From contig PUQB01000873.1 of the NCBI GenBank assembly GCA_003024785.1, forward strand, positions 1 through 64,000: a DNA stretch of 64,000 nt, in the 5' to 3' direction. Shown here in pieces: positions 4,842-62,877 of the stretch (position 1 is its first letter; each line of letters opens with the position of its first letter). Position numbers and translations under genes: made by a program. The DNA is from Selaginella tamariscina. Lineage: Eukaryota; Streptophyta; Lycopodiopsida; Selaginellales; Selaginellaceae. The notes beneath the pieces are model-generated. The model saw nothing but the letters and a program-made list of their open reading frames with translations. It was not told where the DNA came from and searched no databases.

Positions 4842-4906
4842 CTAGAAGAAGAAGAAGAAGAAGAAGTATTGTACATTTGTAAGATACATCTGACGTAATT
4901 ATATAG
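4842..4906 (-). promoter_or_regulatory. Terpene synthase A leader with (GAA)n tract and TATA box
   Basis: Reading the minus strand, CTATATAATTA (4,896-4,906) lies about 85 bp before the ATG and is a good TATA box. It is followed by a TGACG-type bZIP-like motif in reverse and a CTT-rich leader (GAA repeats on plus, about 4,844-4,866). Copies C and D have the same layout. The Harbinger element begins only about 27 bp upstream of the TATA box. Confidence 0.6.
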
Positions 4907-5288
4907 TCGTCAAGCCGCGATTAAGTAACAGTGGGGCTATTCGCACTTAAACTTATCCTAATATTAAAGTCATTTTTAAGTGTTTTTTCTATTTGCACAA
5001 GCATGTATTTACCCGTTTTTTAATGTTTTTTTCTTAAATATTCCAAGTTCGCACATCTGTACTTAAAATTTAGTACTTCCTTAAATTTAAGTTTTTTAGA
5101 CCAATTTTTAAGTGAGGGGTGGGGGGGTCATTTTAATTTTAAGAATTTACCTAAAAAATATTTGAAAAATATTCTAAAATGATTCTAATGAAATAAATTT
5201 GCACCAAGTGTTGGCGCTTGCGGGAAAAAATTTCTAGCAAATTACAAGGATTTACAAGGATTTTTTGTGAGGTTTGAGGACCGTGTTT

Positions 5289-6517
5289 ATGGCGGACGAC
5301 AGTAATAAAAGAAGAGTGGAGAATTTAGAGGAGGAAGAAGAGAATTTTTTGGTAGGGTTTGCTGAATCACCGATGGCGCCTGGAAGATCACCGGCCCTTG
5401 GATCTGGGGGAACTCGTGGAAGCAGAGGAGGGCAAGCTAGTGGCCCAAGAGCTGGGCTTGGAGCAAGCATCAATGCAGGCCGTGGATTTGAGTATGTTGG
5501 AGCTGGGTGTGGACCAAGTGCGGAGCTCGGTGGTGCAGGTCATGATCTCAACACGGTGGAGCTAGAGGAGGGCACGGAGCTCCCACAGCTTCAAGGACTC
5601 GGCTATTTTCAGAACTTGTAAGTTTTCATTCCTTTTAGGGTAGAGGTTGCTTGAAGTTTGAGTCGTTAGGTGTTTGTTAGGATGTGGAGGACCAGGAAGA
5701 TGATGAGGAGCTCCCCGATGAAGAGGAAAACATTCTCGAGGGTGATGATGGTGGTGAGTTTGTGGATACCTCTAGGTTTGCAACTGCTCCAGCAAAAAGA
5801 AGTCGAGGAAAAAACTGGAAATGGGAGGACACAGCGGTGCTGATTGACCTCATGAGGGAGGATTACTTAGCCAAGATCGCTGGGAACAGGAGCAGTGAAG
5901 AGGCTATGTTGAGTGGGAATCAGCGATGGATCTTGCTGGCAAGAAAGATGAAGGAGGCTGGATACGATCGTGATCAGAAGATGTGTAAGCGTCGATGGCA
6001 CAATATGCTAAGTGACTACAGGTGTGTTGGAGATTTTCAGCGGAAGACAGGAAACCCAGACTACTTCGGGCTGAATCCGACTGAAGCGAGGCAGCTTCTT
6101 CCTGGTTTGAACACGCAAGTGATGCCTCGGGCCATGTATGATGCGATGGGTGCTTTTCTTGGAAGGGATGCATCAACAGCCCCCTCATTTCTTGCAGATT
6201 CAGATGTAGTTCAAGATGAGGATGATCCCACGGAAGGAGATGATGCTCATGGAGATGCTTCTCAGGTGCCTGGGAGCTCAGGGAAGAAGAAAAAGAAGTC
6301 AAAGAAGGCAAATGAGTAGTCTGCTCAGGGAAGGGAATGCCTTGTCTGCAGCTAGAAATGAGCTGAGTTTGGCATGGTAGCAGGAGACCCTTGCATGCCA
6401 GCGAGAGATTTGCCAAGCTGAGAAAGAGAAGGCTTCTGCTACTACCAGCCTTGCCGGGGCAATTGTGAACATCTCCATGGCCTTGTGCAACTTTTTAAAT
6501 GGTGCAGCTGCTCCTTA
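5289..6517 (+). pseudogene. Harbinger ORF1: Myb/trihelix-like DNA-binding protein
   Basis: In Harbinger elements this protein binds transposon ends and helps the transposase enter the nucleus. Seen: an acidic, Gly-rich N-terminal part from ATG 5,289; an acidic stretch; then a trihelix-like domain (about 5,800-6,080) with the spaced aromatic residues WKWED, RWILLARKM and CKRRWHNM; and a Lys-rich tail KKKKKSKK near 6,285. A GT-AG intron at about 5,618-5,680 is plausible, but the frames on its two sides do not join cleanly. After TAG at 6,317 another frame continues as a Gln/Glu-rich helix to TAA at 6,517, so the C-terminus is probably frameshifted. DNA-binding role is inferred from family and position. 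Confidence 0.7.
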
Positions 6518-6957: not shown

Positions 6958-8286
6958 TGCTAACGACAAGAGCCCTGCTTTACCAACTTTACCTGGTGAA
7001 GATGATGATGAGACGGAGCTTCGCGAGCTATGGCTGCCAAGAGGTTTTGCACCGGGCTATGGTGGGTGAAGCTAAGGAACCTCACAGCTTGGAGCAAGTT
7101 CTTCATGGAGTATTATGAGCCTGGACAGTGGAAGAGAAAGCTCCGAATGGAAAAGAAAACCTTCTTCTTGCTCTATGGTATGTTAGAGGAGGACATCCGC
7201 AAGCAAACACGACGTGGAGGAGAGCAGTTCCTATCGATGTTCGCTTGGGAGTCACCTTGTACAAGCTGTTCAAGAACACAGACTACTCGGATCTTTCAGA
7301 TAAGTTTGGAATTGGTGAATCTACTGCTCATGACATTGTTTGTGAGACTACTACTGCGATCGTCAAGAGCCTGGGGTACAAGATTTGATTCCCAGAGACA
7401 ACGGAAGAAGTTCAGGCTGTAGCTGCGGGCTTTCAAAGGGTGATAAGAACCCAATTGCCCAATGTTGCGGGGCAATAGATTGTACGCATTTTGAGATAAT
7501 TCGTCCCGCTGGGCCCAGACGGTGAGAGCTATTACGATCGGAAGCAGCGTTACTCCGTGATCATGCAAGGAGTGTGTGACGCTCAAAAGAGGTTCTTGAG
7601 TGTGTATGCAGGCTGGCCAGGTGAATACTTTTTTTTTTTACCAGGTTCTTATTTTTCTTTTTAATATTTTTTTCGTTTCTAGGGAGTGTGCATGATATGA
7701 GAGTTTTTCGGAACTCTACTCTAAGAAACAGATTGCAGCAAGACAACTACTCATAGCACCTCTTGAGCTTGCATTCGATGAGAGGATGAGCCTTACCTGG
7801 TGGGAGATGAGATAAAGGTTACCAGCTCCAGCAACATCTAATGATCCCTCACACAAGTAAGTGTTGTTTGATTTTTATTTACGTAAGTTGTAAAGTTGTC
7901 ACAGCTCCCCACCCAACGAGGGGTGAGTTCGAGTTCAACCTCCAACACCACCTTGCTCGGATTGTTATTGAGCAAGCATTTGGACTTCTGAAAATAAAGT
8001 TAAATGTCTGGATCAGAAACAAAAAATTGCCCGAAGTACCTCCGAACATCATCAAGAGTTGTTGCATCTTGCACAACTTCTTGATTGATGTTGGTGAAAC
8101 CGATCTTCGGGCTGAGATACAAGCATGGAAAGAGGAGGTTAAAAAGCGGAAGAGGCTTAAAACATAGTGGATTATGGTGATCCTGTGCAGGCTGAGGGAG
8201 AGCCACTAGAAGACTTGCGAGGGCTAGAGGATGCTAGGGACATCCGGGAGAACCTCACCGACTTTCTCTGTTTGCGTTCTTATTGA
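6958..8286 (+). pseudogene. Harbinger DDE transposase, broken
   Basis: Cut-and-paste transposase of the DDE_4 family. Seen in order: the helix-turn-helix-like segment GIGESTAHDIV (about 7,305); the first catalytic Asp in AIDCTHF (about 7,470); the second in GSVHDMRVF (about 7,690), split by a GT-AG intron at about 7,620-7,681; and the catalytic Glu in VIEQAFGLLK (about 7,965), followed by CCILHNFLID. The C-terminal RENLTDFL ends at TGA 8,286. Frames change near 7,130, 7,510, 7,755 and 8,165 and there are internal stops, so no functional protein is expected. The order and spacing of the triad make the family assignment secure. Confidence 0.9.
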
Positions 8287-16405: not shown

Positions 16406-17457
16406 TTAATAAGTTGGGATGGGCATCGACTCGAACCTTGGTGGATCTTCAAGGTACATAATTCCCTGTCGCTCGCTTTGCGGTGGTACAGCCCAGTTAA
16501 GACCATGGTAACGAGCGGAATGCCAACTCCACTCGAGAGCTCCTGACATCATATATCCAAGACCATCGATGAACGCCTTCACCTGTGGAGAGAAGTAGCT
16601 GGCCTTGGATATTGAAGCATGCAGCTCACAGAACCTTCGATCCACGGAGTGCACAAGCTCACTTGTGAGATTGACTGCCGTCTGAAAATCAACACCTTCC
16701 GACAAGCAAAATGCCGAAGGAAGGTTGTTAAAATCTCGTCCTATGTACTCTTTGCGGATGATAAGATATCATTGCTGTTACCATGTGGTCGACACAGGCA
16801 ATCTCGATTTCTTTAATCTCCGGACGATTTAAACATGTTCATCTAGCTCAATGCCTGCTCCGTATTCCATCAAGGGAACCAGTATCATGCCAGAGCTAAC
16901 AACACGCTTGAGTTCAAGTAGCTGACTCGGGCTCAACACCGCATGCTCCTCGCGGAGCTTGGATTGTTGAGCTGTCAGATTGAACAAAGTGGAGCACCTA
17001 TCAGAGAGCCGGCATATTGCGTTGTGTCATGTTGGTCCGCAACTGTTCCCATAGGGAAACAAAGCAAGAAAGGAACATGTCATCTCCTCCTTGCCAATCA
17101 CGAGTTTGTGAGTTGCCTCGGATGACTTGAGTGTATTTATGCATGAGAGCTCCAGTCTTGTTGCCGTCGGCCCCAATCGACTTGACGTCGTCAGCCTTTG
17201 TGTCCAGAAGAATGAACCAACATAAAATTTTGTCAACAATGGGAGTCTCGATTCAAAGGCCGTGGGCCAGAATGCACACGCTAGAAAGGGCCACTTCTCC
17301 GCCACAATGAACTCCAGCTCCTTGTCATTGGTGGATTCGGCAGAACATTTACAAAACTCATTGATTTCCTTGACTAGATTCTCGTACACTGGATGCAGCT
17401 TGGACAAAGGGAATGAGCAAGGCAAGGCGGAAGGTAGATTTGAGTGAGGCCTTCCAT
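16406..17457 (-). pseudogene. Terpene synthase-like pseudogene C, several frameshifts
   Basis: Third copy, in the orientation of A. The ATG is at 17,457 and the TAA at 16,406. The N-terminal frame (17,425 to 17,027) runs past the Asp-rich region but is shifted near 17,225, where AATAAAATTTTG replaces the AACATAAGAATTTTG of copy A. Further single-base losses occur near 16,760 (destroying the NDxxSxxxE frame), 16,833 and 17,010-17,025. The C-terminal frame (16,705 to 16,406) is intact to the stop and ends in PTY rather than PTD. It is more damaged than A or D. Confidence 0.85.
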
Positions 17458-17538
17458 TGTCAATGAGAGAATGAGAGATTATTACTAGAAGAAGAAGAAG
17501 AAGAAGAAGTATTGTACATTTGTAAGATACATCTGACG

Positions 17539-17549
17539 TAATTATATAG
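17539..17549 (-). promoter_or_regulatory. TATA box of terpene synthase C
   Basis: CTATATAATTA on the minus strand, about 85 bp before the ATG at 17,457, in the same leader context as copies A and D. Confidence 0.55.
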
Positions 17550-17575
17550 TCGTCAAGCCGCGATTAAGTAACAGT

Positions 17576-26787: not shown

Positions 26788-28506
26788 TCATGGAGTCATG
26801 GAAGGGCTGAAAGACTAGGCACTTGCTCCAAGTTCGCATCTTCAAACTAGCTATGAAGTCGACATCCGTTCCAACTTCTTCACCATCCTCTTGCAGTCCC
26901 TTTAGGATCTGAATGGCTTCCTTGTGCACAGCCTTCCAATACAAGTCCAAGATGAACCACTTAATCCACTCTTTGTCCTGCATGCCTGGAAGCCCAAGTG
27001 TTTGTTGTTCTGCCTTGGATTCAAGATGATTGAGCTTGTTCAAGTATCTGAGCCGCAGCATGTTTGAAATCTTTGCTTTTGACATCGCGTTACAACTTCT
27101 CAATGCCCATCCAGCAACACTGCTTATGAGAGATATTCGTCACTCTGGAACCACTCCTCCCAACTCTGGGTCTATGATAGAGGAACTTGTGCTACGCGTG
27201 TCATGCTTCTTGTACACTAGCTGCTTCAGGTTCAGTTCAAGCTGTGGATTGCCTTTAGCACTGGTGACTACTCTGTCGAGATCATCATCGATCTCGTTCT
27301 GCACATAGATAAGTTAAAAACTTCTTTCCTATCAATCAAACCGAAGGTTACCTTGAAAAGAATCTTTGTGTAGATCAGGTTTGGAAGAGGATGCCAAGCC
27401 ACCTTTCCTATCGCACTCTCCTTCCACTTCCGCACCTCAAGACGATCAACCTCCGTGAGTGACTCAAGATTTTCTGAGTTCCTTCAGTACTAGTGCAAAC
27501 CACCTTTATAGCGAGGGAATATGTGGTAGTGTTGTTTCCACAGATGTTGCTGAAGATCTGTTCTTGAAACTATAGTCTAGACTCTTAACGAAAAAAAAGA
27601 AAATACTCACATGTTTATCGATTGAAACATCAAAACCAGTTGAAGATTGTTGAGGTTCTCTATGGAGATGAACTTGATTGAACGCGAATAGCCATCGTTG
27701 CTTGTCCTCTACATCCTCTCGGTAGAGCTTCTGCAAAGCCTATAGCCTATGGTTCCCGTCCCATCAGCTGAACTTTTGGTTTGATAGCCTTGAAGCCCAC
27801 TATTTGTACTCCGGCTGAGTAAGAGCTTGCCGAAAGACCAGTGCTGCTCGCATTGAATCGGGTTTTTTGACAACTCCGATAGCTCCTTAGCAGTGAGTGG
27901 ATCTCCGATGGACAGAATGAACAAGGCCGTGTTGTAGATAACCAGCCTTCTTCAACAATGACACCAGCCTGTCCAAGTCCCTTGGGTTCGCTCGTTGAAC
28001 CACCTTAAAATGCATTCTACAAATTGGCACATCAGAGGATCACCAAGTCCCTTGATAGTAATTTTGTCAAGCAAGTTCGTTGAGCTCTCCAAATGCAGGC
28101 TGGCCGGTATGCTGTATAACTTCTTCGGCTCCTTATCGTTCTTCGCCTTCTTGCCTTTTGGATCAGCTTTCCCATGGCCTCTCTTTTTGCTGATTGCCTC
28201 CTCCAAGTCGTCCTCGTAAAAGAAAAAGAGCTTCAACTGCCTCTGTCATCTGCACTTGCTCTTTCAGGATTGCAACCTCAGCGGATGAAGGAGGCAACTG
28301 CGACGAGCTCTCTGGAAATCTGTGATGGTTGATGGAGGCTGCTCCTGCTCAACTGGTACTACTTGAGGCTGAGTCACTGGAGGATTCTCCTTTGCTACAT
28401 TAGATGGTTCTCCTCTCTTTCCTCGCTTGTGCTTTGATATCCTCTTCTCTTCCCGTGGCTCTTCATCAGGCACAGTCTCTTGTAGACGTTTTGAAGCTCT
28501 CACCAT
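26788..28506 (-). pseudogene. ParB-like gene of MULE copy 1, 3' truncated
   Basis: Starts at MVRASKRLQE (ATG 28,506) just after a 5' UTR intron acceptor TTTCCAG. The order is a highly charged Lys/Glu N-terminus; a nuclear-localisation-like KKRGHGKADPKGKKAK (about 28,170); GLGDP; FILSIGDPLTAKELSEL (about 27,900); the degraded region corresponding to WDGNHRLQAL in the other copy (about 27,740); then helical text ending in a Leu/Arg/Lys-rich segment SNMLRLRYLNKLNHLESK (about 27,050). The element breaks at 26,788, before the methyltransferase domain. Frames change several times, some probably at introns (for example after 27,300). ParB-like is my reading of the DGNHR box and the preceding L/S-rich helix; not certain. 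Confidence 0.55.
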
Positions 28507-28602
28507 TTTGCAAACTCTGGAAAGCAAACACACAAGTCAATTGATTCGGAGACAAAAGGAAAAACAAAAACCAAAGATTACTAACCTTGTGCCACTCGAG
28601 CT

Positions 28603-29170
28603 AGATGGTGCCGACCCTCTCAGTCGGCATAGAAAAGTAGATGAGTGAAACCTACTGACTAAGACTGGTTGGTGCCGACCCTCTTAGACGGCATAGATGA
28701 GATGATGTATGAAGTATGCCGACTGAGCCAGGATGGTGCCGTCCTCTCAGACGGCACAAATGGGAAGACCCTTTAACTCTGGCATAAAAAAAAACACATT
28801 GTGATATGGATACTTAAGTTGCAAATCAAAAAATAAAGAAATTGAACAAACCTTGTGGCTACCGACTGAGCAGGATGGTGCCATCTCTCTCAGATGGCAC
28901 AAATGGGAAGACCCTTTAACTCTGCATAAAAAAAAAACACATTGTGATATAATACCTGAGCCGCAAATCAAAAAATAAAGAAATTGAAACAAACCTTGTG
29001 GCTGCCGACTGAGTTTGGATGGTGCCGTCTCTCTCACACGGCACAAATGGGAAGACCCTTTAACTCTAGCATAAAAAAAAAACATATTGTGTTATGAATA
29101 CTTGAGCCACAAATCAAAAAGTAAAGAAATTGAACAAAACTTGGGCTATCGACTGAGCAGGATGGTGCTG
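28603..29170. repeat. Tandem hairpin repeats between divergent genes (MULE copy 1)
   Basis: About four units of roughly 120-140 bp. Each has an inverted repeat such as GTGCCGAC-CCTCTCA-GTCGGCAT or GTGCCGTC...GACGGCAC, then AAATGGGAAGACCC, an A-run, and (minus strand) a splice-donor-like CACAAG|GT. It lies between the ParB-like gene (minus) and the transposase (plus), where a bidirectional promoter is expected. Confidence 0.85.
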
Positions 29171-29649
29171 TTAATCTAAATCAGCACAGAAATCTCAACT
29201 GGTTTACTTGGGTGCTACACGAATCAACTTGAAATGGATGGCGCTGCTCCTCTTAGGCCCCTTGGAGGAGATTTCATATATAAGATCTAAAATAGAAAAA
29301 CCCTAGCCGCAATGGAAACAATAAACCTTATCTACCAAAAAACCCTAGCCACAATGAAAACAGTAAACCCTACAGAATAAATGTGACATTAAAATTTAGG
29401 GTTAATATTAAAATATGTGAATAATTGTTAAAGGTGAAGATATTTCAAATTATAAAAGATAATAATTAAATTACATCGGTGATACTAGAGAGGACAACAT
29501 TAAGAATACTATGAGCTGGGTAGCGTAGAATTAATTATATACAAAAGTGTGTTCACGTTTATTATCAACGATATTATTTTGACGAACGAGAGTGTGTTTA
29601 ATCTTTTGCTTTGCTTTCCTAAACCACCAAGCTTTCTCCTTGCGTTGTC

Positions 29650-32310
29650 ATGGCCAGAGTTACCTATGAAGGCATTGATAAAGATTTCCCAGTCGATGAA
29701 GATGGAAATGCTTTTGTATTTGAACATGATCTTCATATTGCTTTCAACATTCCTTATTGGTTCAATATACATGTGGTTCAATTGATGTCAGTTTTTGTGA
29801 GTTCTATGTGGAATTGTTACTAGAAGGCAATGCATCAAACCAGTTTATTTTTTATACATTGTGCCTGGCAAAGGGCCCGATTCAGGTTGCGGACAAAGGA
29901 GCGTGAGAAATCCATGCTGGTGTGTCTTCTAAGAGCAGACAAATGTAGGATAGGGAAGGATCTCATTAGTTCATCTGAAGTTAAACGAGTCTCTGAACTA
30001 TCGGAGATATACAATGGAAATGTCATTTACAAACTTCCTCCAAAGAAAGAAAGCACAGAGAAATACTTGGGATGAATCGCAAGGATGGATGCTACCATTG
30101 GATACACCCGAGCACAACACACTTGCATGTTCCGGTGCAAGTCAGTCAAAGTTCATGTGTCGGACATCTCAAATGCATCAATCCTATCTGCCCCTACTTG
30201 GCTTTTGAGAAGAAAGCAAATGAATGTCACTTCAAGGATGCTGTGGAAAAGGCGAAGACAATTGAGTCAGGCAAAGTAAAAGGCATGAAATGTAAGCATT
30301 TGTGGGGAGGAGCCATTGCACTTGTCCGGCTTATGTGTACTACATTCTGTCATACGACATTTCTTTTACAAGGTTGTTCATTCACAGAGGTGTTCATCAT
30401 CATCCAATCAGCCCTTCAGTGTTAGCTTCAAACGTTCAGCGTGCCAAATCTAGTGTTAGCAACGTGGTAAAGAGCAATCCATGAACCAATCAACGAGTGA
30501 TTGAGTTTCAAGCTACACATGAGCTCATCTTTGAAGAACTTTTCAAGGAAGAAGGAGAAGTCTCATACACTGGTTTACTCTCAAAACTTGAACCTTTTAC
30601 AAACTATCGAAGGCATTTTTCTTTAGATCTCGGCACACTGACGTGACCTTTTCTTTAGGACTCGGGACAATCAAGACAGAAGGAGATACACTTTAGAGAG
30701 GGTTACAAGGGTCTTCTAGAACTGAAGACAAAGTTGCCAATACCTTTCATTCACGTCATACATGTTCCAGGGATGGAACTGCATGGTGCTAAGGAGCAGC
30801 CTTTGATCTTCAAAATAACAGTTGAGGCACTGGATTTAGGAGTTGACTACATCAGAAGGTGTCAAAGTGGAGGAGACCTTCATGATCAATGGGTTGTTCT
30901 GGACCACACACACCGTATACCAGACTGGGTGATAATTGGAATACACCTATATGACCCATTATAAGTTGTAGAACTCTTCATAACACTTTCTAATCTTTGT
31001 TATATAATGCTCTCTTATAGTGTCAAATCCATGGTCACTATAGCTTACGCATATATGTGCCGCGAAGATAATGTTGCAGTGCTAAAGTTTTTGAACACAA
31101 TGCTAGAGGTTTATAAGAAACAGGGTTTGAAGAATGTAAACTTTGCTGGTTTCATGTCGGATGAAGCTAGAGCGATATGGATAGCCTTGCGCCAAGTATT
31201 CAATAATAGAGAAAAGATGAAAGGAAGGGAAAGAAGTTATCTGTTTCATTTTATGCAATCCGTGTGTCATGTGACAAAGAAATGAATCGCATAAGAGCAC
31301 GCGAAGAACACATGAAGCTTGCTTGTGCCTGGCCTATAGCACTGAATGAATAATCTAAAAAAGAACAACTAGCAATTATTGAGTCTTTTTGGGAAGGACG
31401 AGCGTCAAACATTCACGCTTTGAAGACATGGCTGTCTTAGTGGATCAGGCATGAGGACCACATCTCCATGGTGGAACTGGGAGACATGAGAAGAAGGACT
31501 CGCGAGCGTTCCAACTACAAACAATGTTGAAGTGATTCACGCGAGAGCAAGAAGAGCAAGATTGGCCAAAAGAGTACCACTACTGGAGGCGACAATGTTA
31601 GACCTCACCGATGTAGTTCTGCAGAGTGAGAAGGTGAAAGCGGCAATAGAAGGGAGGTATACAGGGTCAGGTCCTTCGAAGGAAACTCTATTGAAACAAG
31701 TGCAACGCAAACTCTTTGAGGGGAAAAGTGTATCTCCATCAGCAATTATCAATCTGGTGGAAGACGAGGAACACTTGACCAGCCCGAAGTTCACGAGTAC
31801 CACTAACATTCGAGTGCAAACTGTCAGGAGAACAGTCACAAGAACATAACAGTCTGATTCTCGACGTTCACACAGACATGATGTAGAATACACAGAGCGG
31901 GTGGTACAAAACAACAAGAGAAAGAGGTTAAGGTTTGAAGAGAAAGAGATTGCACAAACAGAGTGGGCCATCAGACGAATCAGAGCATCTAGTAAGGTTA
32001 AGTGTTTGGGGATGAATCAAGAAGGAACTGCTCTGTGTGGAAAATCAATTGGTTTTCCAAGTAGAGTGCCAGCACCAGGATTCTATAGAAAACGAATGTA
32101 CAATGATGCCTTGGGGAATTAGGAGTATGTACAACAGATGATGTGGTTTTGCCCAAGAGATTTAGGGTGTTTCACACGGCCAAATGGCAAAATTCTTCAG
32201 TCAAAAATTCCAACACCACCAATGGTTTGGCCTATGCTCAAGGAAACAAAGCTGACAAGTGAGGAGTTTAGAGAATTACAAGATGCAGGCTTTGTTCTGG
32301 AAGATTTATA
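29650..32310 (+). pseudogene. MULE transposase, copy 1
   Basis: Begins MARVTYEGIDKDFP (ATG about 29,650). Shows the N-terminal zinc-finger-like pattern CVGHLKCINPICP (about 30,150), the phrase RGVHHHP (about 30,390), and the MULE catalytic core WVVLDHTHRIPDW (about 30,900) with GFMSDEARAIW (about 31,155) and a C..H region in the position of LFHFMQ (31,245). Numerous stops (near 30,075, 30,480, 31,285, 31,350, 31,440 and 31,850) and frame changes break it. The SWIM domain is absent because the copy ends at about 32,436. It cannot be autonomous. Confidence 0.8.
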
Positions 32311-32436
32311 GGGGACAGCAAGAAGAGTAGATGAGAGTCAGAAGGACAAAACACCATCACCACCACGTGGAGCTGGATCTATAACAATTCCACATTTTGA
32401 AAGACGCATGGTCCGAACTCTAACAAAAATGTCCTG

Positions 32437-40319: not shown

Positions 40320-41373
40320 TTAATAAGTTGGGATGGGCATCGATTCGAACCTTGGTGGATCTTCAAGGTACATAATTCCCTGCCGCTCGTTTTGCGTGGT
40401 GCAGCCCAGTTAAGACCATGGTAACGAGCGGTATGCCAACTCCACTCGAGAGTTCCTGACATCAATATCCAAGACCATCGATGAACGCCTTCACCTGTGG
40501 AGAGAAGTAGCTGGCCTTGGATATTGAAGCATGCAGCTCACAGAACCTTCGATCCACGGAGTGCACAAGCTCACTTGTGAGATTGACTGCCGTCTGAAAA
40601 TCAACACCTTCCGACAAGCAAAATGCCGAAGGAAGGTTGTTAAAATCTCGTCCTATGTACTCTTTGCGGAATGATAAGATATCGTTGGCTGTTACCATGT
40701 GGTCGACACAGGCAATCTCGATTTCTTTAATCTCCGGACGATTTAACACATGTTCATCTAGCTCAATGCCTGCTCCGTATTCCATCAAGGGAACCAGTAT
40801 CATGCCAGAGCTAACAACACGCTTGAGTTCAAGTAGCTGACTCGGGCTCAACACCGCATGCTTCTCGCGGAGCTTGGATTGATGAGCTATAAGATTGAAC
40901 AAAGTGGAGCATCTATCAGAGAGCCGAGCATATTGCGTTGCTGTCATGTTGGTCCGCAACTGTTCCCATAAGGAAACAAAGCAAGAAAGGAACATGTCAT
41001 CTCCTTGCTGACCATGAGTTTGTGAATTGCCTCGGATGACTTGAGTGTATCTATGCATGAGAGCTCCAGTCTTGTTGCCGTCGGCCCCAATCGACTTGAC
41101 GTCGTCAGCCTTTGTGTCCAGGAGAATGAACTAACATAAGAATTTTGTCAACAATGGGAGTCTCGATTCAAAGACAGTGGGCCAGAATGCACACGCTAGA
41201 AAGGGCCACTTCTCTGCCACAATGAACTCCAGTTCCTTGTCATTGGTGGATTCGGCAGAACATTTACAAAACTCATCGATTTCCTTGACTAGATTCTCGT
41301 ACACTGGATGCAGCTTGGACAAAGGGAATGAGCAAGGCAAGGGCGGAAGGTAGATTTGAGTGAGGCCTTCCAT
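40320..41373 (-). pseudogene. Terpene synthase-like pseudogene D (nonsense plus frameshifts)
   Basis: Fourth MTPSL copy. ATG at 41,373, TAA at 40,320. A TGG-to-TAG change near 41,130 (KFLCWF in copy A becomes KFLC-stop) ends the N-terminal frame just before the Asp-rich motif. The frame from 41,058 then runs intact through NDILSFRKE and the region that is frameshifted in A, until one base is lost near 40,465 (ATCAATATCC against ATCATATATCC), giving a stop after DGLGY. A further loss occurs near 40,395. D therefore supplies the correct frame for A's break, and A supplies D's; no copy is intact. Confidence 0.87.
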
Positions 41374-42580: not shown

Positions 42581-42588
42581 TAAATTGT
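42581..42588. repeat. Target-site duplication of MULE copy 2, left
   Basis: TAAATTGT directly precedes the element end GAGTGTCGCC. The same 8 bp follow the right end at 50,678-50,685. Mutator-like elements usually make 8-11 bp duplications. Confidence 0.6.
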
Positions 42589-42773
42589 GAGTGTCGCCAT
42601 TTTGGAGGCTTGGGGCCCAGGAGGCCTGGGCTCGAATATTCTAGAATATTTTAGAATATTCTTTTTGGTCGGCAGTATTGACCTCAATTGGCAAAATTTT
42701 TTTTTTAGTAAACTGTTGTATTTCTACCTTATTCTTTTTATATTAGCTTAATTTATTACTCAATACACATTAG

Positions 42774-45360
42774 CTAAAGTTTCTTCTTTATCTTAAGTAA
42801 AGCTGCAGTTCTCGAACCACCAGCTAGGCTTGGACGTGGAGGTGTCTGAATAGGTATTTCCTCTGGTCTAATGTTCTCTGCGAGCTTGTTTGTTACTAAC
42901 CTAGAGAGTTCGAAACTCTTCTCGGTTCCTATAATATTCCTTCCGAGCTTGACGGCAGCTAACAACGATGATCCGGTTCTGGAACCAATATCCCAGACTA
43001 GGTCGCCATGTCTACTGAGACGCTCAATCAAAAGCTGTATGAGTCGAACACTCTTCGGTTGAATCATCATCCTGCACAAACTTCCATTAGGATAAACAAA
43101 GTAAAGTACTTCCTTACCAAGCCTCTTGAAAACGGTCGACGGTATCGACGAGGATCGTGTTCATCAACGCCAGAGGGTTTGGCCTCTTCGACTTCTTCTC
43201 AGAGCTTTGCAGCACCAAGAGAACCAACAAGTTATCTTGCCACATAGACCAAGTTAAACTTGAACTTGAATAGCTAGCTTGCTAGGTTACCTTAATTTTG
43301 TCACGTATCCCCAGCCTCATGCACGGTAGACGCTGTAAGTCCCTGCAACCTCCAAGTTGATTACCGCAGCCGCCTGAATCACCACTGAAACAGAAGGAGA
43401 ACTCGCGAAGACGACCATGAAACCACTCGCTGCCAAGTGCATTCCACTGAACTGCAAGGCCTCCTCAAACTTCACCGAATCTAGCTGCACAATGTCTTGT
43501 TGATGCTAGCACCTCCATATACAAGTTCATTGGGCAAGTCAAGGATGATGAGGTTGAAGCTGTATTCACCTACCACTTCCTGGAACACTGTTTGTGACTC
43601 AGCTGTCTATATTTTGTCAACTGTTGTCGGAGCTTGGTGTACACCTCTATCTGGGAAGCACCCGGCTCGAAAAGGACATGCTCATCTCCTCCATATCGCA
43701 CACAGCCAGGTCGTAGGATCCACGGGATGCAGCCAGTGTCGGGATGAAGGTGATTAGGTCGTCCTTGATGTCCAAACCAGCTACAAGTGGCTGCACCTCA
43801 TTAATTGTAAAGTCGATTGCTGGCGGAGGTGCTGTAGAAGAGCTTGGTCCCGCTCCCACTCCCTTTGCAGGTGTAGTTGTCTTCTGCACCATCTTCTTCA
43901 TCTTGCTCTTCTTGATAGCCTCTACTTCGTCTGGCTCCGCTAGAAGATCATTGCCATGCATGTCGAACAGTGAGCTCTCCCAAGCTGGTGGCTGTTGCAA
44001 TGGACAGTCGAGCCAGAATGGAACATGCTCTTGTTCGAACGGTGTTAGAGCTCCTCTGCTCTTCGACCACATGTGAGGCTCGCTTGTATGATCTGTCCAC
44101 AGCTTCATCATTTGAGACGGTGCCATTTTCTTTGCCAGTATGAACTTGTAACACAAAGTTAGTCAATAGCAATGTTGGAATGAAAGCTTACCTCCATATC
44201 ATCCGACGCGCAGACTCCTCACGCTCCAGAAACTCATTCGGCTCCATCAAATAAATGAACCGTATGCAGTCATGGAAGGGCTGAAAGACCAGGCACTTGC
44301 TCCGAGTTTGCATCTTGTCAAACCAGCTCATGAAGTCAACATTCGTTCCACTTCTTCACCATCCTCTCGCAACCCCTTAAGGATCTGAATGGCTTCCTCG
44401 TGCACAACCTTCCAATATAAGTCCAAGGTGAACCACTTGATCCACTCTTTGTCCTGCATGCTTGGTAGCCCAAGTGTCTGTTGTTCTGCCTTGGATTCGA
44501 GACGAGTGAGCTTGTTCAAGTATCGGAGTCGCAACATGTTTGAAATCTTTGTCTTTGACATCGCGTACAGCTTCTCAATGCCCATCCAGCAACATTGCTT
44601 ATGAGAGATGTTCGTCACCTTCTGGAACCACTCCTCCCCAACTCTGGGTCTATGATAGAGAGGAACTTGTGCATACGCTTGTCATGCTTCTTGTACACTA
44701 GCTGCTTCAGGTTCAGTTCAAGCTGTGGATTGCCTTTAGCACTGGTGACTGCTCTGTCGAGATCATCGTCGATCTCGTTCTACACATAGAATAAGTTAAA
44801 AACTTCTTTCCTATAAATCAAATCAGGTTACCTTGAAAAGGATCTTTGCACAGATCAGGTTTGGAAGAGGATGCCAAGACGTCTTTCATGTTGCACTCTC
44901 CTTCCACTTCTGCACCTCAAGACGATCAACCTCCGTGAATGACTCAAGGATTTTCTGAGTTCCTTCAGTACTAGTGCAGACCGCCTTTACAGCGAGGAGA
45001 ATATGTGGTAGTGTTGTTTCCACAGATGTTTCTGAAGATCTATTCAATGAAACTGTAAGTCTTTAACGAAAAGAAAAGAAAATACTCACATGTTTATTGA
45101 TTGGAACATCGAAACTAGTTGAAGATTGTCGAGGTTCTTCATGGAGATGAAACTCGATCGAACGCAAATAGCCCATCGCTGGTTGTCCTCTGCATCCTCT
45201 CGGTAGAGCTTCTGCAAAGCCTGTAGCCTATGGTTCCCGTCCCAGCAGCTGAACTTTCGGTTTGAGAGCCTCAAAGCCCACTGTCTGTACTCCGGCTGAG
45301 TAAGAGCTTGCTCAAAAGACCGGTGCTGCTCGTACTAAACCGTGTCCTTCAACAGCTCTG
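42774..45360 (-). pseudogene. ParB-like / beta-class DNA methyltransferase gene, MULE copy 2
   Basis: Read from 45,360 down: WDGNHRLQAL (about 45,240), a ParB-type nucleotide/DNA-binding box; helical text with SNMLRLRYLNKL (44,540); a low-complexity linker with Thr/Pro/Ser (43,870); YSFNLIILDLPNELVY (about 43,560) in the place of motif IV (usually DPPY or SPPY); a hydrophobic strand ASGFMVVFASS (43,420); FVYPNG; then KSVRLIQLLIERLS, GDLVWDIGSRTGSS and GRNIIGTEKSFEL (43,050-42,880), a clear motif X-I-II module of N4-cytosine/N6-adenine methyltransferases. It stops at 42,774. The order IV to I defines the beta class. Stops near 43,640 and 43,330 and frame changes indicate introns or decay. The N-terminal exons have been flipped away by the inversion at 45,364. 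Motif I is confident; ParB is moderate. Confidence 0.65.
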
Positions 45361-45363
45361 TCT

Positions 45364-46098
45364 AGCTTGAGTTGGTAGCCACAAGGTTAGTCATCTTTGA
45401 TTTTTATTTTTTATTTTGTCTCCTAATCAATTGACTTGTGTGTTTGCTTTCCAGAGTTTAAAAAATGGTGAGAGCTTCAAAACGTCTACTAGAGACTGCG
45501 CCTGATGAAGAGCCACGGGAAGAGAAGAGGATATCGAAGCACAAGCGAGGCAAGAGAGGAGAACCATCTAATGTAGCAAAGGAGGATCCTCCAGTGACTC
45601 AGTCTGAAGTAGTACCAGTTGAGCAGGAGCAACCTCCATCAACCATCACAGATTTCCCGGAGAGCTCGTCGTAGTTGCCTCCTTCATCCGCTGAGGTTAC
45701 AGTCCTGAACGAGCAAGTGCAGATGACAGAGGTAGTTGAAGCTCTTTCTTCTTTTAGTGAGGACGACTTGGAGGAGGCAGTCAGCAAAAAGAGAGGCCGC
45801 AGGAAAGTTGATCCAAAAGGCAAGAAGGCGAAGAGCGATAAGAGCTAAAGGAGTTATACAGCATACCGGCTAGCCTGCATTTGGAGAGCTCAGCGAACCT
45901 GCTCGACAAAATTACTATCAAGGGACTTGGTGATCCTCCTGATGTGCCCATCTGTAAAATGCATTCGAACGAGGTGGTTCGATGAGTGAACCTAGGGGAC
46001 TTGGACAGGCTGGTGTCATCGTTGAAGAAGGTTGGTTATCTACACAACACGGCCTTATTCATTCTGTCCATCGGAGATCCACTCACTGCTGAGGAGCT
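45364..46098. other. Inverted segment with AGCT at both breakpoints
   Basis: This 735-bp segment is the reverse complement of 27,881-28,602 in MULE copy 1, while sequence on both sides is collinear between the copies. AGCT stands at each breakpoint in both copies (27,881, 28,599; 45,364, 46,095). Copy 1 keeps the gene contiguous, so copy 2 carries the derived arrangement. Confidence 0.88.
45465..46095 (+). pseudogene. Detached N-terminal part of the ParB-like gene
   Basis: Reads MVRASKRLLE from ATG 45,465 after an acceptor TTTCCAG. It continues through a charged domain, the NLS-like KKRGRRKVDPKGKKAK (about 45,790), GLGDP and LFILSIGDPLTAEEL (about 46,050). One TAG interrupts it at 45,672 where copy 1 has a frame change, and one base is missing near 45,847. 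Because of the inversion it now runs away from its former downstream half at 45,360, so no full protein can be made without re-inversion. Confidence 0.75.
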
Positions 46099-46820
46099 AT
46101 TGGTGCCGACCCTCTCAGTCGGCACAGAAAAGTAGAAGAGCATATCATGCCGACTGAGATAGGTTGGTGCTGACCCTCTCAGACGGCACTGAAGAGATAA
46201 TGGTGCCGACTGAGCTAGGATGGTGCCGTCCCTCTCAGACGGCACAAATGGGAAGACCCATTAACTCTGAAAAAAAAAAAATACTTGAGCCGCAAAGCAA
46301 AAAATAAACAAATTGAAAATACCTTGTGGCTGCTGACTGAACCAGGATGGTGCCGTCACTCTCAGTCAGCACAAATGGGAAGACCCTTTATCTTTGGGAT
46401 TCTGACACAAATGGGAAGACCCATTAACTCTGAAAAAAAAAACATTGTGATATGTATACTTGAGCCGCAAAGCAAAAAATAAACAAATTGAAAATACCTT
46501 GTGGTTGCCGACTGAGCAGGAAGGTGCCGTCACTCTCAGTCGGCACAAATGGGAAGACCCTTTATCTCTGGGATTCCGACACAAATGGGAAGACCCATTA
46601 ACTCTGGAAAAATGGATAGACCCAAAGCAAAAAAAAACAAATTGAAAATACCTTGTGTGTCGACTAAACCAGGATGGTGCCGTCTCTCTCACACGGCACA
46701 AATGGGAAGACCCTTTAACTCTGAAAAATAAATTATTTGAGCCGCAAATCATAAAATAAAAAAATTGCACATACCTTGTGGCCGCCGACTGAGCAGGATG
46801 GTGCCACAATCTAAATCGGC
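46099..46820. repeat. Tandem hairpin repeats between divergent genes (MULE copy 2)
   Basis: Five to six units of the same kind as 28,603-29,170: GTGCCGAC/GTCGGCAC or GTGCCGTC/GACGGCAC stems with a CCTCTCA-type loop, AAATGGGAAGACCC, an A-run, and the minus-strand donor-like CACAAG|GTATTTT. The duplicated phrase GACACAAATGGGAAGACCC is extra in this copy. An open minus frame through the repeats (46,890-46,366) is a by-product of unit length. Confidence 0.87.
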
Positions 46821-47290
46821 ATAGAAATCTCAATTGATTTACTTGGGCGTGCACAAATTGACTCGAAATGGATGGCGTCGCTCCTCTCAAGCCCCTTGGA
46901 GGAGATTTCAGATATCAGATCTGAGATAGAAAAAACCCTAGCCGCAATGGAAACAGTAAATCCTATTTACCAAAAACCCTAGCCGCAATGAAAACAGTGA
47001 ACCCTATGGAATAAATGTGACATTAATATTTAGGGTTAATATTAAAATATGTGAATAATTAGTAAAGGTGAAGATATTTCAAATCATAAAAGGTAATAAT
47101 TAAATTAAATCGGTGATACTAGAGAGGACAACATTTTAAGAACACTGTGAGCTGGGCAGCGTAGAATTAATTATATACAAAAGTGTATTCACGTTTATTA
47201 TCAATGATTATAATTTTTTTTGGCGAACAAGAGTGTGTTTAATCTTTTGCTTTGCTTTCCTAAACCACCGAGCTTTCTCCTTGCGTTGTC

Positions 47291-50200
47291 ATGGCCAGAG
47301 TTACCTATGAAGGCATTGACAAAGATTTCCCAGTCGATGAAGATGAAAATGCTTTTGTGTTTGAACATGATCTTCACTTTGCTTTCAACATTCCTTGTTG
47401 GTTCAGTATACATGTTGGTTCAATTGATGTATTTCTGCGAGTTCTGGAGAAGATGTGGAGTTGTTACCAGAAGGCAATGCATCAAACCAGTTTGTCTTTT
47501 ACACATTGTGCCCGGCAAAGGGCCCGTTGTTCAGGTTGTGGACAAAGGAGCGTGAGGAATCCATGCTGGTGTGTCTTCTAAGAGCAGACAAATGTAGGAT
47601 AGGGAAGGATCTCATTGGTTCGTCTGAAGTTAAACGAGTCTCTGAACTACCGCAGATATACAATGGAAATGTCATTTATGAACTTCCTCCAAAGAAAGAA
47701 AGCACAGAGAAGTACTTGGGGATGAATCGCAAGGACGGATGCTACCATTGGACACACCGAGCACAACACACTGGCATGTTCCAGCACGAGTCAGTCGAAG
47801 TTCATGTGTCGGACATCTCAAATGCATCAATCCTACTTGCCCCTACTTGGCTTTTGAGAAGAAAGCAAATGAATGTCACTTCAAGGGTGCTGTGAGAAGG
47901 CAAAGACAACTGGACAGGCAAAGACAACTGAGACAGGCAAAGTAATAGGCATGAAATGTAAGCATTGTGGAGAGGAGCCATTGCTAGTGCACACTTGTCC
48001 GGCTTATGTGTACTACATTTGCCAGACGACATTTCTTTTACAAGGTTGTTCATTCACAGAGGTGTTCATCAGCATCCAGTCAGCCCCTCAGTGTCAGCTT
48101 CAAACGTTCACGTGCCAGATCTAGTGTCAGCAACGTGGTAAAGAGCAGTCGCGAACCAATCAATGAGTGATTGAGTTTCAAGCTGCGCGTGAGCTCATCT
48201 TTGAAGAACTTTTCAAGGAAGAAGGAGAAGTCTCGTACACTGGTTTACTCTCAAAACTTGAACCTCTAACAAACCATCGAAGGTATTTTTCTTTAGATCT
48301 CTACACACTGACGTGACCTTTCCTTTAGGACTCGGGACTGGATTACACAATCAAGACAGAAGGAGACACACTTTAGAGAGGGTTACGAGGGTCTTCTGGA
48401 GCTGAAGACAAAGTTGCCAATACCTTTCATTCACGTCATACATGTTCCAGGGATGGAACTGCATGGTGCTGAGGAGCAGCCTCTGATCTTCAAAATGACA
48501 GTTGAGGGACCGGGTTCAGGAGTTGATTACATCAGAAGGTGTCAAAGTGGAGGAGACCTTCATGATCAATGGGTTGTTCTGGACCACACGCACCGTATAC
48601 CAGACTGGGCGACAATTGGAATACACCTTTATGACCCATTGTAAGTTGTAGAACTCTTCATAACACTTTCTAATCTTTGTTATCTAATGCTTCTTACAGT
48701 GTCAGATCCATGGTCACTATAGCTTACGCAGATATGTGCCGCGAAGATAATGTTGCAGTGCTGAAGTTCTTGAACACAATGCTAGAGGTTTGTAAGAAAC
48801 AGGGTTTGGAGAATGTCAACTTTGCTGGTTTCATGTCGGATGAGGCTGGAGCGATATGGATAGCCTTGCGCCAAGTATTCAACAACGGAGAAAAGATGAA
48901 AGGGAGGGAAAGAAGCTGTCTGTTTCACTTTATGCAATCCGTGCGTCAGGTGACAAAGAAATGGATCGCAGAAGAACACCGCGAAGAACACATGAAGCTT
49001 GCTCGTGCCTGGTGCAGCACTGAATGAACAATCTAAGAAAGAACAACTAGCAATTCTCGAGTTTTTTGGGAAGGACGAGCGTCAAATATTCGTGCTTTGA
49101 AGACATGGCTGTCTTGGTGGATAGGCATGAGGACCACATCTCCATGGAACTGGGAGACATGACAGAAGAAGGACTCGCGAGTATTCCAACTACAAACAAT
49201 GCTGAAGTGATTCACACAAGAGCAAGAAGAGCAAGATTGGCCAAAAGAGTACCACTGCTGGAGGCAACAATGTTAGACCTCACCGATGCAGTTAAGGTGA
49301 AAGCGGCAATAGAAGGGAGGTATACAGGGTCAGGTCCTTCGAAGAAACTCTGTTGAAACGAGTGCAACGAAACTCTCTGAGGGGAAAAGTGTATCTCCAT
49401 CAACAATTATCAATCTGGTGGAAGACGAGGAACACTTGACCAGCCCGGAGTTCACAAGTACCACTAACGTTCAAGTGCAAACTATTAGGAGAACAGTCAC
49501 AGGAACAGAACAGTCTGATGCTCGACGTTCACACAGACATGATGTAGAGTATACAGAGCGGGTGGTCCAAAACAACAGGAGAAAGAGGTTAAGGTTCGAA
49601 GAGGTTTTGGAGAGAGAGATTGCACAAACAGAGTGGGCCATCAGACGAATCGGAGCATCCAGTAAGGTTAAGTGTTTGGGGATGAATCAGGAAGGAACTG
49701 CTCTGTGTGGAAAACCAATCGGTTATCCAAGCAGAGTGCCAGCACCAGGATTCTACGGAAAACGAATGTACAGTGATGCCTTGGGGAATGAGGAGTATGT
49801 ACAACAGATGATGTGGTTCTGCCCAAAAGATTCAGGGTGTTTCACGTGGCCAAACGGCAAAATTCTTCAGTCACGAATTCCAACACCACCAATGGTTTGG
49901 CCTGTGCTCAAGGAAACAAAGCTGACAAGTGAGAGGTCAGAGAACTACAGGATGCAAGCTTTGTTCTCGAAGGTTTACAGGGGACAGCAGGAATAGTAGA
50001 TGAGGGTCAGAAGGACAAAACACCATTGCCACCACGTGGAGCTGGATCTACAACAATTCCACCTTTCGAAGGACGTATGGTCCGGACTCCAACAAAAATG
50101 TCTAAGGAACAAAGAAGCATTTCCACAAGGCCAAGACGTTTTTAGGTCGTGTGAGAAATGTTGAAGTGATAGTTAGAGGACGGAAGGAGGCTTTCATTGT

Positions 50201-50366
50201 GTCGGCAGGAAATGACTCTGCAAAGGTGACTATTAGTACTTATCCTACATGCAGTTGTTTTACCTTTCAGAAGAGCAAAAGTTGGAGCCCATGTGTACAC
50301 ATGTACTTTGTCTACAGCCGTGTGCTTGGCTTGAACCCGGACGTCACATATTTTCTACAAAGGTGA
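47291..50366 (+). pseudogene. MULE transposase with SWIM zinc finger, copy 2
   Basis: Starts MARVTYEGIDKDFP (ATG 47,291). Seen in order: a zinc-finger-like CVGHLKCINPTCP (about 47,830) and CKHCGEE...HTC (47,960); RGVHQHP (48,060); the catalytic core WVVLDHTHRIPDW (48,570), joined across a 59-bp GT-AG intron (48,641-48,699) to VRSMVTIAYADMC; GFMSDEAGAIW (48,830); CLFHFMQ (48,920); a Cys-rich segment with ALCGKPIG and WFCPKDSGC (49,700-49,850); and a SWIM finger CSCFTFQ...CVH (50,250-50,300), ending at TGA 50,366. The transposase nicks element ends in the nucleus. Frame changes near 47,450, 47,900, 48,125, 49,020, 49,350 and 49,970 argue against an intact product, although some could be introns. 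Better preserved than copy 1. Confidence 0.82.
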
Positions 50367-50677
50367 TTGCTCAGTGAGATGGAGGTCCACCGTTTACTGG
50401 TGAATTGCAGCAGAGTTCATGACCCACCGTTGCTACAAGGATAAATGGTTTACATAAAAATGCTTTGTTTGAATAGTAACTTATTGAACTTTTTTATAAA
50501 GTATTCAAAAAATTTCTAAAAATTTATTGGTCGGCAAATATTAAGCCAGTCGGCATATTAAAAAAGCTTATATATTCTAGAATATTCTAAAATATGCTAG
50601 AATACCTGGAATATTTGCGAATATACTAGAATAATACGAAGCCTCCTGAGCTGGAGCCTCCTTTTCGCTGAGACCCA

Positions 50678-50685
50678 TAAATTGT
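50678..50685. repeat. Target-site duplication of MULE copy 2, right
   Basis: TAAATTGT, matching 42,581-42,588. PM-A has TAAATAGT at the equivalent place (about 17,723), so this word belonged to the target. Confidence 0.6.
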
Positions 50686-59609: not shown

Positions 59610-62600
59610 TTAAGCTTCAGAAAACATACATTCCCTTGCAGTTTTGTTAATCGTGACTTTATCAACGCTTCTTGACATCCACCCATATCGAATGGATTTA
59701 ACATTTATAAAACATGCTGGGTCTTTTTGATTGGGAGACCATGTTTTCTCTAGGCATCCATTATATCTTTCGCTCTCCTTCTCGTGTCGCCTTTTTTGTG
59801 GTTTGAACCATGCAACCTTAACAATACTATTTTTTGTGATTACTTCAGGTGTGTCGATAATTTGACCCATCCAAATAGGCTGATTATATGACGCATCTGG
59901 AGTAATGAGAACCATCATTAGTTTTTGAAGATCCTTGCAGCAATCAAAGTATGCTTTAGGTTTTTGGTTCCTTTGTCCAACAAAGTGTGGGGTTTGCACT
60001 TCCACATCACTACTGGCTTCTATGTCGTCTGTGCTCAGTGATGTCATTTCAATCTCCTCTCGCCACCTTGTTTTAGGCCAGAAAGGGTGTTGCAATTCTG
60101 TACTTGTGACAGTAGGCCCTTCCAACTCTCGAACAACAGTCTCCCAATAGTGACCACATGCTTATATAGTTCTGAGTAACCAGTTGCCTTATCAGAATTC
60201 TTTGGCATCGATTTTTGAACCCATGCCACATATTTTTTGATGCCATCAATAATAACCTCTTGTTCCTTGAGCTGGGCACTCAATGGAATAGGGTCTGGTT
60301 GTCCTTCTGGGAGAAGTGGCTTTCCATCCTCTCCACTTTTGAAGAGCATTAAGCCCTCTTTCGGTAACCACTCCTGCTCTGATGGCCGTAACTTGTACTG
60401 CATAATAGGTATACCATCTCGTATGGAGAAAAAGAATTGTAGCGGCACAAGGTGACCAACTAAAGAATCACTCCCTTCTTTTATATACTCCTTGAGAAAT
60501 TTTTTGAAGTCTGGCACCTCAGTCACAAGCAAAGCACAACTTTTTTTGGAGATGCAATTTTCAAAAAGATTCATCATATGCGGTAAGTAAGTGCACTTGT
60601 CCTTTTTGTAGAGTTGGAGACCTTGCTGAAGAACGCATCAATATCTTCATGAGTGTGACCAACCATAAGGAAACTGAGCGTGATTGTTTCAAACACACCT
60701 TTGGCAACAAGCATTGACAAGTATGCTAGCACATATCTAGAAAATAAAAGTAAGTATGAGCTTGAGAAACCCTTAAGTAAAATGATTTACCTATTTTTGT
60801 TCTCGCCTGCACAATTATCCATCTGTAAAAGCAAATGACGAGGAAGCTTATTTGATGTTGAGGACACATGTACACTATTTGAGCTAGATCCCTCCACTGA
60901 ACCTGAACTCTCAACAGGGCCATTTTTTGTGCAGGTTGTTGACAATGCCTCTCATATTCCCAAGTAGCCTCAAGTGCAGACGTGTTCATGAGAGCATTAT
61001 GTAAAGGTTGAAGGTGTTGTTTCTTCACTTTGAGATCACTGATAGGACTTGTCTGTGAGTGGGCTTCAAGGTTTCTGAAACACATGGCTAACGACCCAAT
61101 AGTGAAATTGGAGTCGCTAGACCAATGTGGAAGTGAAAAGTGTCCATATGACTCACAACCGTGTCCATGTGTTAGCACACCTGTCAATGAAATCGGAAGT
61201 TTCATGACATTTCCAAGGCACTTTGGTGTTGCAAAGAGCTTTGGAATGCTGGTCTTTGAATGATCCATCCATCTTGTCATGGATCAAGCACAGGTACTCT
61301 GATGGGCGTGACACAGAAAGCATGCGGTGTGCATAGTACTGAGACCGGCAAGTTTGTTGTGCAATCATGTGGGCCTCCATCTTCCTTTGAATGGTAGTGA
61401 TCTCCACCAAGGTTTTTGCACAAGCCTCTGCAGCCTTCAATGATGTACAAGTGTCACACTTAGAAAAGCTAGAGTGTTTTGCAATCTCCACATCCTTAAA
61501 ATGAGTATTCCATATGTTGTTGAAGGTACCAGTGCAGATTGCTTGGAGCCCCATCAAACTGAGGCACTTGTTCACATGTTCACACAGTTTCAATTGAGTG
61601 TAGATTGAAGGTAAAACCTTGAGATTTTCCCTGACCCCTGCATTTGTGGTTCGGCATTTGTGAGGCATCCTGTCTGCATTTGCTTCCACAAAAGCCTTGA
61701 GTATCTCTATGGCTGCCATGATGTGAGAGCGGGTTTTGACCAAGCGAGTGTTCCCATGAACTGAGGTTCGCGCTCCATCTAGCCACTCATCCCTCCGACG
61801 GTAGAACGTGGTCTTTGGGATCCCGTATATACTGTACCAAGCTTTGAAGCAGATGGCCACCTTATTAAATACCATGGATGTACTCTGATAACCTGTGTCC
61901 GAGGCCATTCCATCAATACACCCAGTTAGTGCAGCATATACAAACTCATGCCTTTGCTTTTGGGTGAGCATACGAAAGACATGTCTACATTGGGTAATTT
62001 CATTCCGGTCTGCCATCTGACAACACTTCTTCTTGCAACAGTCAATCGTGGAAATGCTCGTAACACTTTCGGAAGATGTAGGATCCATCTTTACCCTCTT
62101 GCTGAAACTTGCAGGGGAAGATCTACAACCCATGAATCGCCTTTTTCTTACAATAGGACCAATGCAAGGAACCTCTTCAAATATGAGTTGTTCTTCCGGG
62201 TTGTTATTATTGAAATCCAACCCAGAATATGTTGAACCATCTTGCCGTCTTAATTCAGATGTTCGCCACCTCACGAGGGATCCAGGATACAATGTGCCAT
62301 TAGGTGAAACCTCTGTCACAACTACACCCACGAAGTCGGACCCTAGTTTCTCTTCTGACACTGCTTCCATTGGATTTATAGCTGTGATGATGCCTCTTCC
62401 GACTTCAATCTCACGAAGAAAGAGAATCACCTCATCCATCACAGCAGGCAAGCCATCATCTGGTAAACTCGTGCTACTATTTGTTTGTGACTCTGCATAT
62501 TCTGTGTCAGCCTTGACTTCATCCAAATTCCACAATACAGGAGAACCCTCCTCAAATTCCATTCCCAGAACCTCAACATGCTTGTAAATGGTGTTCACCC

Positions 62601-62727
62601 ATACGTACACACAAGATCCTTGGGCAATATTGTGACATGATGCATTATTATCTCGAACTTCCACAGTTCCAGTGCCAACTATCTCGTTGTTCCGAAGAAG
62701 ACATACTTTATCTCCAGTATTAAACAT
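59610..62727 (-). pseudogene. DUF8039/DUF7869-like transposase gene, frameshifted
   Basis: Read from ATG 62,727 (Met5 of a longer open frame, next to an acceptor-like TTATGTGCAG). Domains: an N-terminal barrel-like GTGTVEVR...CHNIAQG...VYVWV (residues 15-70), as in Ptta/En/Spm-type DUF8039; basic patch RKRRF and KRVK (195-217); Cys cluster DCCKKKCC (233-240); GIPKTTFYRRRDEWL (306-320); CDTCTSL (428); RPSEYLCLIHDKMD (478-491). After a 4-bp duplication it continues with HSKTSIPK, LTGVLTHGHG, SDSNFTIGSL, QMDNCAGENKNR, then a 54-bp intron (60,737-60,790), and FLMVGHTHEDIDAFFS (about 60,650), the hallmark of DUF7869. The C-terminal part (60,577-59,610) ends with an adaptor-like PIWMGQIID...VKVAWFKP. 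Frameshifts lie near 61,268, 60,930, 60,620 and 60,160. Transposase role is inferred from family; the two Asp motifs suggest an RNase H-like fold. Confidence 0.65.
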
Positions 62728-62877
62728 ATTGTCCTGCACATAAATAATTGTATTATTTATGATATCTGTTTATGCAATATTTCTAAGAAATCTGAATTAC
62801 GGTTACTTAATAATATGCATATGCAATAATACATAATTATGTTTAGAGATAATATCTCATGTTTGATTAATACAACT

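Follow-up and report, generated by a model that had tools for sequence, protein, structure and literature searches.

The window, a stretch of 64,000 nucleotides of Selaginella tamariscina DNA, contains a complete copy of a transposon in which a transposase gene on the plus strand is accompanied by a divergent gene on the minus strand, whose predicted product would join a ParB-like N-terminal part to a C-terminal domain of the beta-class N4/N6 methyltransferase type. The original prediction that a methyltransferase-like gene stands beside the transposase gene within element ends was borne out: similarity to other copies stops at both boundaries of the element (42589..50677), which is flanked by an 8-bp target-site duplication, TAAATTGT, at 42581..42588 on the left and 50678..50685 on the right.

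Anatomy and copy number of the element

The window corresponds to contig C1252 of the 300.7-Mb assembly G000, and the other C and L labels used below denote loci of that assembly. Alignment of long copies revealed a sharp loss of similarity at the element ends. Among seven copies of this family (family 1), the target-site duplication is exact over 9 bp in C1145 and C335 and over 8 bp in C113 and the window copy; it matches at 7 of 8 positions in C1170, and none was seen in C1370 or in C532, the end of which was placed short, inside a repeat. A subterminal GAATATTCTA-type repeat at 42637..42662 has an inverted copy at 50579-50604. Repeats of this type lie close to both ends in family 1 as well as in the second family described below (locus L089), and their nGAAnnTTCn pattern recalls heat-shock elements. 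The window also holds a second, partial family-1 copy (26790..32433) that is 86-88% identical to C1145.

A search of the assembly with the 128-amino acid ORF at 42777-43160 (minus strand) returned 1,358 first-look candidates, from which at least 150 places were scored, all with E values below 1e-60. The exact 23-base left end of family 1 occurs 229 times in the assembly, with no occurrence of a reversed-pattern control. Five full young copies outside the window differ pairwise by only 10-44 substitutions over ~8.4 kb, which marks family 1 as recently active. Because the same pairs differ by 20-31 indels, mostly of a single base, set against these substitution counts, we infer that the small private indels are mainly assembly errors. 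Contamination by bacterial or phage DNA, which a domain pair typical of phages could suggest (PMC12704722, as far as its accessible text goes), has a negligible probability; it is refuted by the presence of at least 150 scored copies in the assembly, by introns and by target-site duplications.

The transposase gene (47291..50444, plus strand) has three exons and encodes 1019 amino acids in C1145, the only one of nine copies checked in which it is intact, and is broken by indels in the window. Target duplications of MULE/Mutator elements measure 8-11 bp, and the exact ones of both families fall within this range. The label of MULE given to the element in the original prediction is not established: in its favour are the duplication size, the terminal repeats and a SWIM finger (PF04434) in an ORF of C532, which at an E value of 0.0042 and 17 bits lies under the cut-off of 19.6, but the transposase has no match to the MULE transposase profile PF10551. 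Comparison of the transposase by hhalign with nine PF10551-matching stretches of this genome did not rise above controls, and none of the 77 PF10551 places in the assembly lies within the long copies of the element that were compared. By duplication and anatomy, the element may best be called MULE-like. MuDR, with its mudrB gene, is likewise a two-gene element with 9-bp duplications, but differs in that the genes of the present element diverge from the centre and its transposase escapes PF10551. A separate MULE with a full PF10551 match is found at 16 places with identical score in the assembly, has open frames of 433-673 amino acids and was apparently amplified recently.

Elsewhere in the window, microbial-type terpene synthase-like genes or fragments are located at 40465-41130 on the minus strand (PF19086, E value of 1e-24) and at 3760-4835 (PF19086, 4.9e-16 for 3760-4350), and the ORF at 17030-17563 is similar to them by eye; terpene synthases of microbial type fit a non-seed plant. 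A Myb/SANT-like DNA-binding ORF (PF13837, 5e-12) near another ORF (5681-6316 and 7012-7419, plus strand) might, at a guess, represent a PIF/Harbinger-type element. A group of long ORFs at 59613-62769 (minus strand), of up to 538 amino acids and with one DUF7869 match just under the cut-off, is possibly another transposon.

The ParB-like and methyltransferase-like gene

A gene model derived from the majority of five young copies contains six exons and five GT-AG introns of 46-56 bases. Only C113, out of nine copies checked, has the gene intact, coding for 992 amino acids; private indels of one or two bases occur in seven of the nine. In no copy checked are both genes intact together, and both are broken in the window copy. 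In the latter, the gene extends from the remainder of exon 1 to the PF01555-matching exon 6 (42774..45360, minus strand) and, apart from small indels, is collinear with the intact C113 gene; the exon 1 remainder with the CWDGNHR box, also conserved in the second family, occupies 45089..45334, and exon 6 with motif X-I extends from 42774 to ~43071. The N-terminal part of exon 1, comprising the ATG at 45465, a basic N-terminus and the first ParB-like box, lies on the plus strand in a segment of ~741 bp (45361..46100) that has the opposite orientation in each of the nine further copies aligned over it (L031-L037, L039 and L040). It is because of this inversion that the basic N-terminus was first seen on the plus strand. 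The separate plus-strand gene initially read at 45465-46095 is hence ruled out; it is the inverted N-terminus of the same gene, which is uninverted in the nine copies and in the second copy of the window. An apparent frameshift before exon 6 is equally no sign of gene death, since the reading frame continues once a GT-AG intron of 46 bases is removed. The 492-amino acid open frame given for L038 (G000:C1235:22000-31990) in the search table is spurious and stems from a long N run beside a methyltransferase exon. In the C1145 copy (L041+L031), around positions 4000-5040 of the element, tandem repeats of ~137 bp resemble repeated 5′-UTR mini-exons with their introns (unit CACAAG/GTAT...TTTCAG/AGTTAATG), the last unit joining the ATG exon of the methyltransferase-like gene.

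The assignment of the methyltransferase domain is solid, and the domain is complete. The motif module recognized earlier in the minus-strand gene was recovered by PF01555 (N6_N4_Mtase) both in the window ORF at 42777-43160 (minus strand; E value of 3.6e-6, 27.5 bits, cut-off of 26.7) and in the spliced protein, in which the match to the METHYLTRANSFERASE domain covers residues 898-953 of 992 (1.1e-8, 35.8 bits). The intact spliced protein also matches PHROG methyltransferase families (best E value of 1.8e-10). In a tblastn search against phages, only the C-terminal methyltransferase part of the 992-amino acid protein was matched (best E value of 3e-4 among the 20 of 265 records listed), and exon 6 alone reached 1e-6 (60 of 379 records listed); parts of the protein were also compared twice with viral contigs, and no relative turned up. 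Beta-class N6_N4 methyltransferases are characterized by the motif order IV ... X-I together with a SAM motif, and the catalytic motif of the N6_N4 class is (D/S/N)PP(Y/F/W). Comparison by hhalign of a two-family profile with ten phage or plasmid ParB-linked methyltransferases aligned 190 columns (P of 2e-6 and probability of 89.5, in a one-template comparison); DLPN was aligned with DPPY, and motif IV precedes motif I, which is the beta-class order.

The SAM motif is WDIGSGTGSS in both families. Among 49 pattern matches, spread over 47 loci that include overlapping ones, 42 read GSGTGS, six GSRTGS and one SSGTGS, the GSRTGSS of the window copy being a minority variant. Motif IV is FNLIILDLPN in 45 of 46 pattern matches at 45 loci and FNLVIFDLPN in the other, counts that include overlapping loci and in which the search pattern restricts the variants visible. 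The canonical (D/S/N)PP(Y/F/W) is absent, motif IV being DLPN in both families, and the missing aromatic residue of DPPY is thus a family trait. Catalysis is uncertain because of this missing residue, and enzymatic activity of the protein is plausible. We consider it rather unlikely that the enzyme is dead and its domain kept as a SAM- or DNA-binding fold in a protein acting purely as repressor or activator of the element. The occurrence of DLPN in both families, next to a SAM motif that looks canonical in most copies, and the low dN/dS of the domain would agree with such a loss, but both the D and the second P persist, some phage proteins with DLPY bear a methyltransferase annotation, and one lost aromatic residue need not end activity.

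The ParB-like label is of another kind. The series NEVVRRVNP...GYLRNT...CWDGNHRL...KLY, largely conserved across both families, resembles two ParB boxes in order. The DGNHR box pointed out in the original prediction is indeed present (ORF 45089-45334, minus strand), but ParB membership is not sustained, as PF02195 has no match in the protein or anywhere in the whole assembly. With our own profile of 13 phage or plasmid ParB proteins, both boxes align in order and far apart with a score of 0.0, within the range of shuffles (323 of 500 scored, best 6.2), and hhalign gave no match. The only trace among ParB profiles is PF18763 (ddrB-ParB), at an E value of 0.17 for the window ORF. Two AlphaFold predictions, with pLDDT of 31.6 and 38.3, were too low for a reading of the fold. 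We use the term ParB-like at the level of motifs and by analogy with algal proteins, not as a statement of membership.

Conservation in a second family

A PF01555 search of the assembly, with at least 150 places scored among 739 candidates, revealed a second family with a 106-amino acid open frame at many places. Sampled places fell into family 2 (C571, C681, C486, C993, C531 and C744) or family 1 (L085, L086, L088, C1016, C50 and C586). Family 2 has the same divergent gene pair in the same place and orientation. Between the families, identity of the methyltransferase-like protein is 49-51% along most of the sequence and rises to 72% around motif I, and that of the transposase is 34-82% depending on the segment, with the minimum in a frame-broken stretch. 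By eye, an exact 9-bp duplication was read in C486 (TTTGTAAGA) and in C993 (TCTTTATTG), and one matching at 6 of 9 positions in C571; the left end of C681 was looked for and not found.

Comparison with C113, the reference shared by all comparisons, gave dN/dS values of 0.22-0.39 for the family-1 methyltransferase-like gene in the 18 comparisons, out of 23, whose dS was 0.02 or more, representing 16 distinct copies (L009 and L040 are the same copy, as are L011 and C532); the other five, with few changes, gave 0.28-0.85. For the transposase, five of six comparisons gave 0.12-0.52 and the sixth had no changes. Differences are enriched at third codon positions in the window copy (p of 1.4e-4) and in all six comparisons, covering five distinct copies (p below 0.05); base positions in one selection test were taken from the majority of five copies. 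These values indicate purifying selection on both genes, a signal that is real but moderate, since introns diverge barely more than exons (7.9%, 19 of 240 sites, against 6.0%).

These data bear on whether the second gene is a functionless passenger of the Pack-MULE type. Mutator-type elements tend to acquire fragments of host genes (PMC6446971, in its accessible part), but two families with proteins that are ~50% identical have this gene at the same position and in the same orientation, and its dN/dS is similar to that of the transposase. Both observations disfavour a passenger gene, which we hold to be very improbable.

Repeated palindromic sites and possible function

In C1145, TCAGTCGGCA occurs 16 times in the 2.06 kb outside both genes and not once in the 6.4 kb of the gene regions, the limits of which were set by hand. 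The family-1 sites occupy the intergenic repeats and the vicinity of both ends; in the window, the central region between the divergent genes (46101..46830), as compared with young copies, consists of tandem repeats with CAGTCGGCA half-sites. In the five young copies of family 1, CAGTCGGCA occurs 15-18 times per copy, against 0.035-0.075 expected, and the window copy contains six. The family-2 locus L089 has 25, of which 22 pair into 11 perfect palindromes, CAGTCGGCATGCCGACTG, with a spacing of 39-40 bp, in an array upstream of the methyltransferase-like gene. The 20-base palindrome CCAGTCGGCATGCCGACTGG has 1,130 exact occurrences in the assembly and its reversed-pattern control has none. The matches listed lie on eight contigs, six of which have a PF01555 match 3-4 kb away; the palindrome contigs C1 and C13 are absent among the best 150 scored PF01555 places. 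CCCAGTCGGCATGCCGACTGGG is a candidate target sequence. Because the half-site is shared despite ~50% protein identity, and is doubled into palindromes in family 2, it points to a conserved DNA-binding protein encoded by the element.

The explanation that we favour, with somewhat less than even confidence, is that the second gene encodes an element-specific DNA-binding and SAM-binding protein that acts on CAGTCGGCA/TGCCGACTG sites for self-marking or anti-silencing. Such a protein would bind these sites, which overlie the promoter region common to the two genes, and would methylate DNA or otherwise alter chromatin at that place, so that both genes stay expressed, in a manner resembling the working of the VANC proteins of VANDAL elements; the element would perhaps also tune its own transcription. 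The repeated palindromic sites indirectly favour the original proposal that, through this gene, the element may mark itself or escape silencing. Against this explanation stand the DLPN motif, the ParB homology below significance, the moderate selection signal, the finding of no copy with both genes intact, and the sites near both ends, which are equally expected of transposase-binding sites. The MURB protein of MuDR is thought to act as an accessory factor of transposition. A possible, if unlikely, alternative is that the sites bind the transposase and that the ParB/methyltransferase-like protein assists transposition (for example in end bridging, excision or reinsertion), with no role in transcription or silencing. 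The half-sites near both ends and in the middle, as in subterminal transposase sites, and a gene pair kept together in two families are compatible with this alternative, but the densest arrays lie between the genes, in the promoter region, and not at the ends.

These arrays between the genes, recalling by analogy those of parS or of VANC targets, also allow a bolder version of the self-marking explanation, which we find distinctly unlikely, in which a ParB-derived protein would load onto the CAGTCGGCA palindrome array and give the element, and nothing else, a bacterial-type base mark (4mC or 6mA) that maintains its transcription in a genome where 5mC silences transposons. In phages, fusions of ParB-CTPase and N6_N4 methyltransferase are described in the accessible text of PMC12704722. 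Phage and plasmid fusions, for example that of Wolbachia phage WO, have the same domain order and a methyltransferase domain that aligns over its full length, but the plant protein, with 992 amino acids, has a long middle region, DLPN, introns and a ParB-like part beyond profile recognition.

VANDAL elements of Arabidopsis carry VANC anti-silencing proteins (PMC10398659, PMC5735166), the target regions of which consist of short motifs repeated in tandem within noncoding DNA (PMC10398659). As far as the accessible parts of these papers go, the likeness lies in a DNA element that combines an extra gene with such repeats. By contrast, VANC is not called a methyltransferase in the accessible part of PMC10398659, the binding proposed here is hypothetical, and the target motifs of VANC6 and VANC21 differ, whereas one half-site is common to our two families.

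The original view that no described plant transposon encodes such a gene is in line, for land plants and MULEs, with the open-licence papers listed by our searches, among which we found no such ParB-methyltransferase gene; the accessible text of a paper on Mutator evolution (PMC6446971) mentions neither ParB nor methyltransferase. It does not extend to algae, in which transposons with ParB-methyltransferase genes have already been reported (PMC12477816, as far as its accessible text goes). The algal element resembles ours in encoding a ParB-like and N4/N6 methyltransferase protein of ~1,000 amino acids (1104 in the alga), with the transposase gene on the other strand. It differs in its length of 21.5 kb, against ~8 kb here, where the duplications are of 9 bp and the host is a land plant; moreover, we describe two many-copy families (with the family-1 left ends counted above) and palindrome arrays, with ParB homology at the level of motifs and with the algal proteins known by description only.

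Our findings extend transposon-borne ParB/methyltransferase-like genes from algae to a land plant, in which many copies are young, one gene copy is intact and a candidate cis-site is present. They raise the questions of bacterial-type self-marking by transposons and of an anti-silencing route parallel to that of VANC. If the parS/ParB-like reading were true, eukaryotic transposons would have repeatedly recruited a phage-type marking module. An active enzyme would provide a vascular plant with element-specific 4mC or 6mA, and a dead one would exemplify a methyltransferase fold that has become a site-specific regulator.
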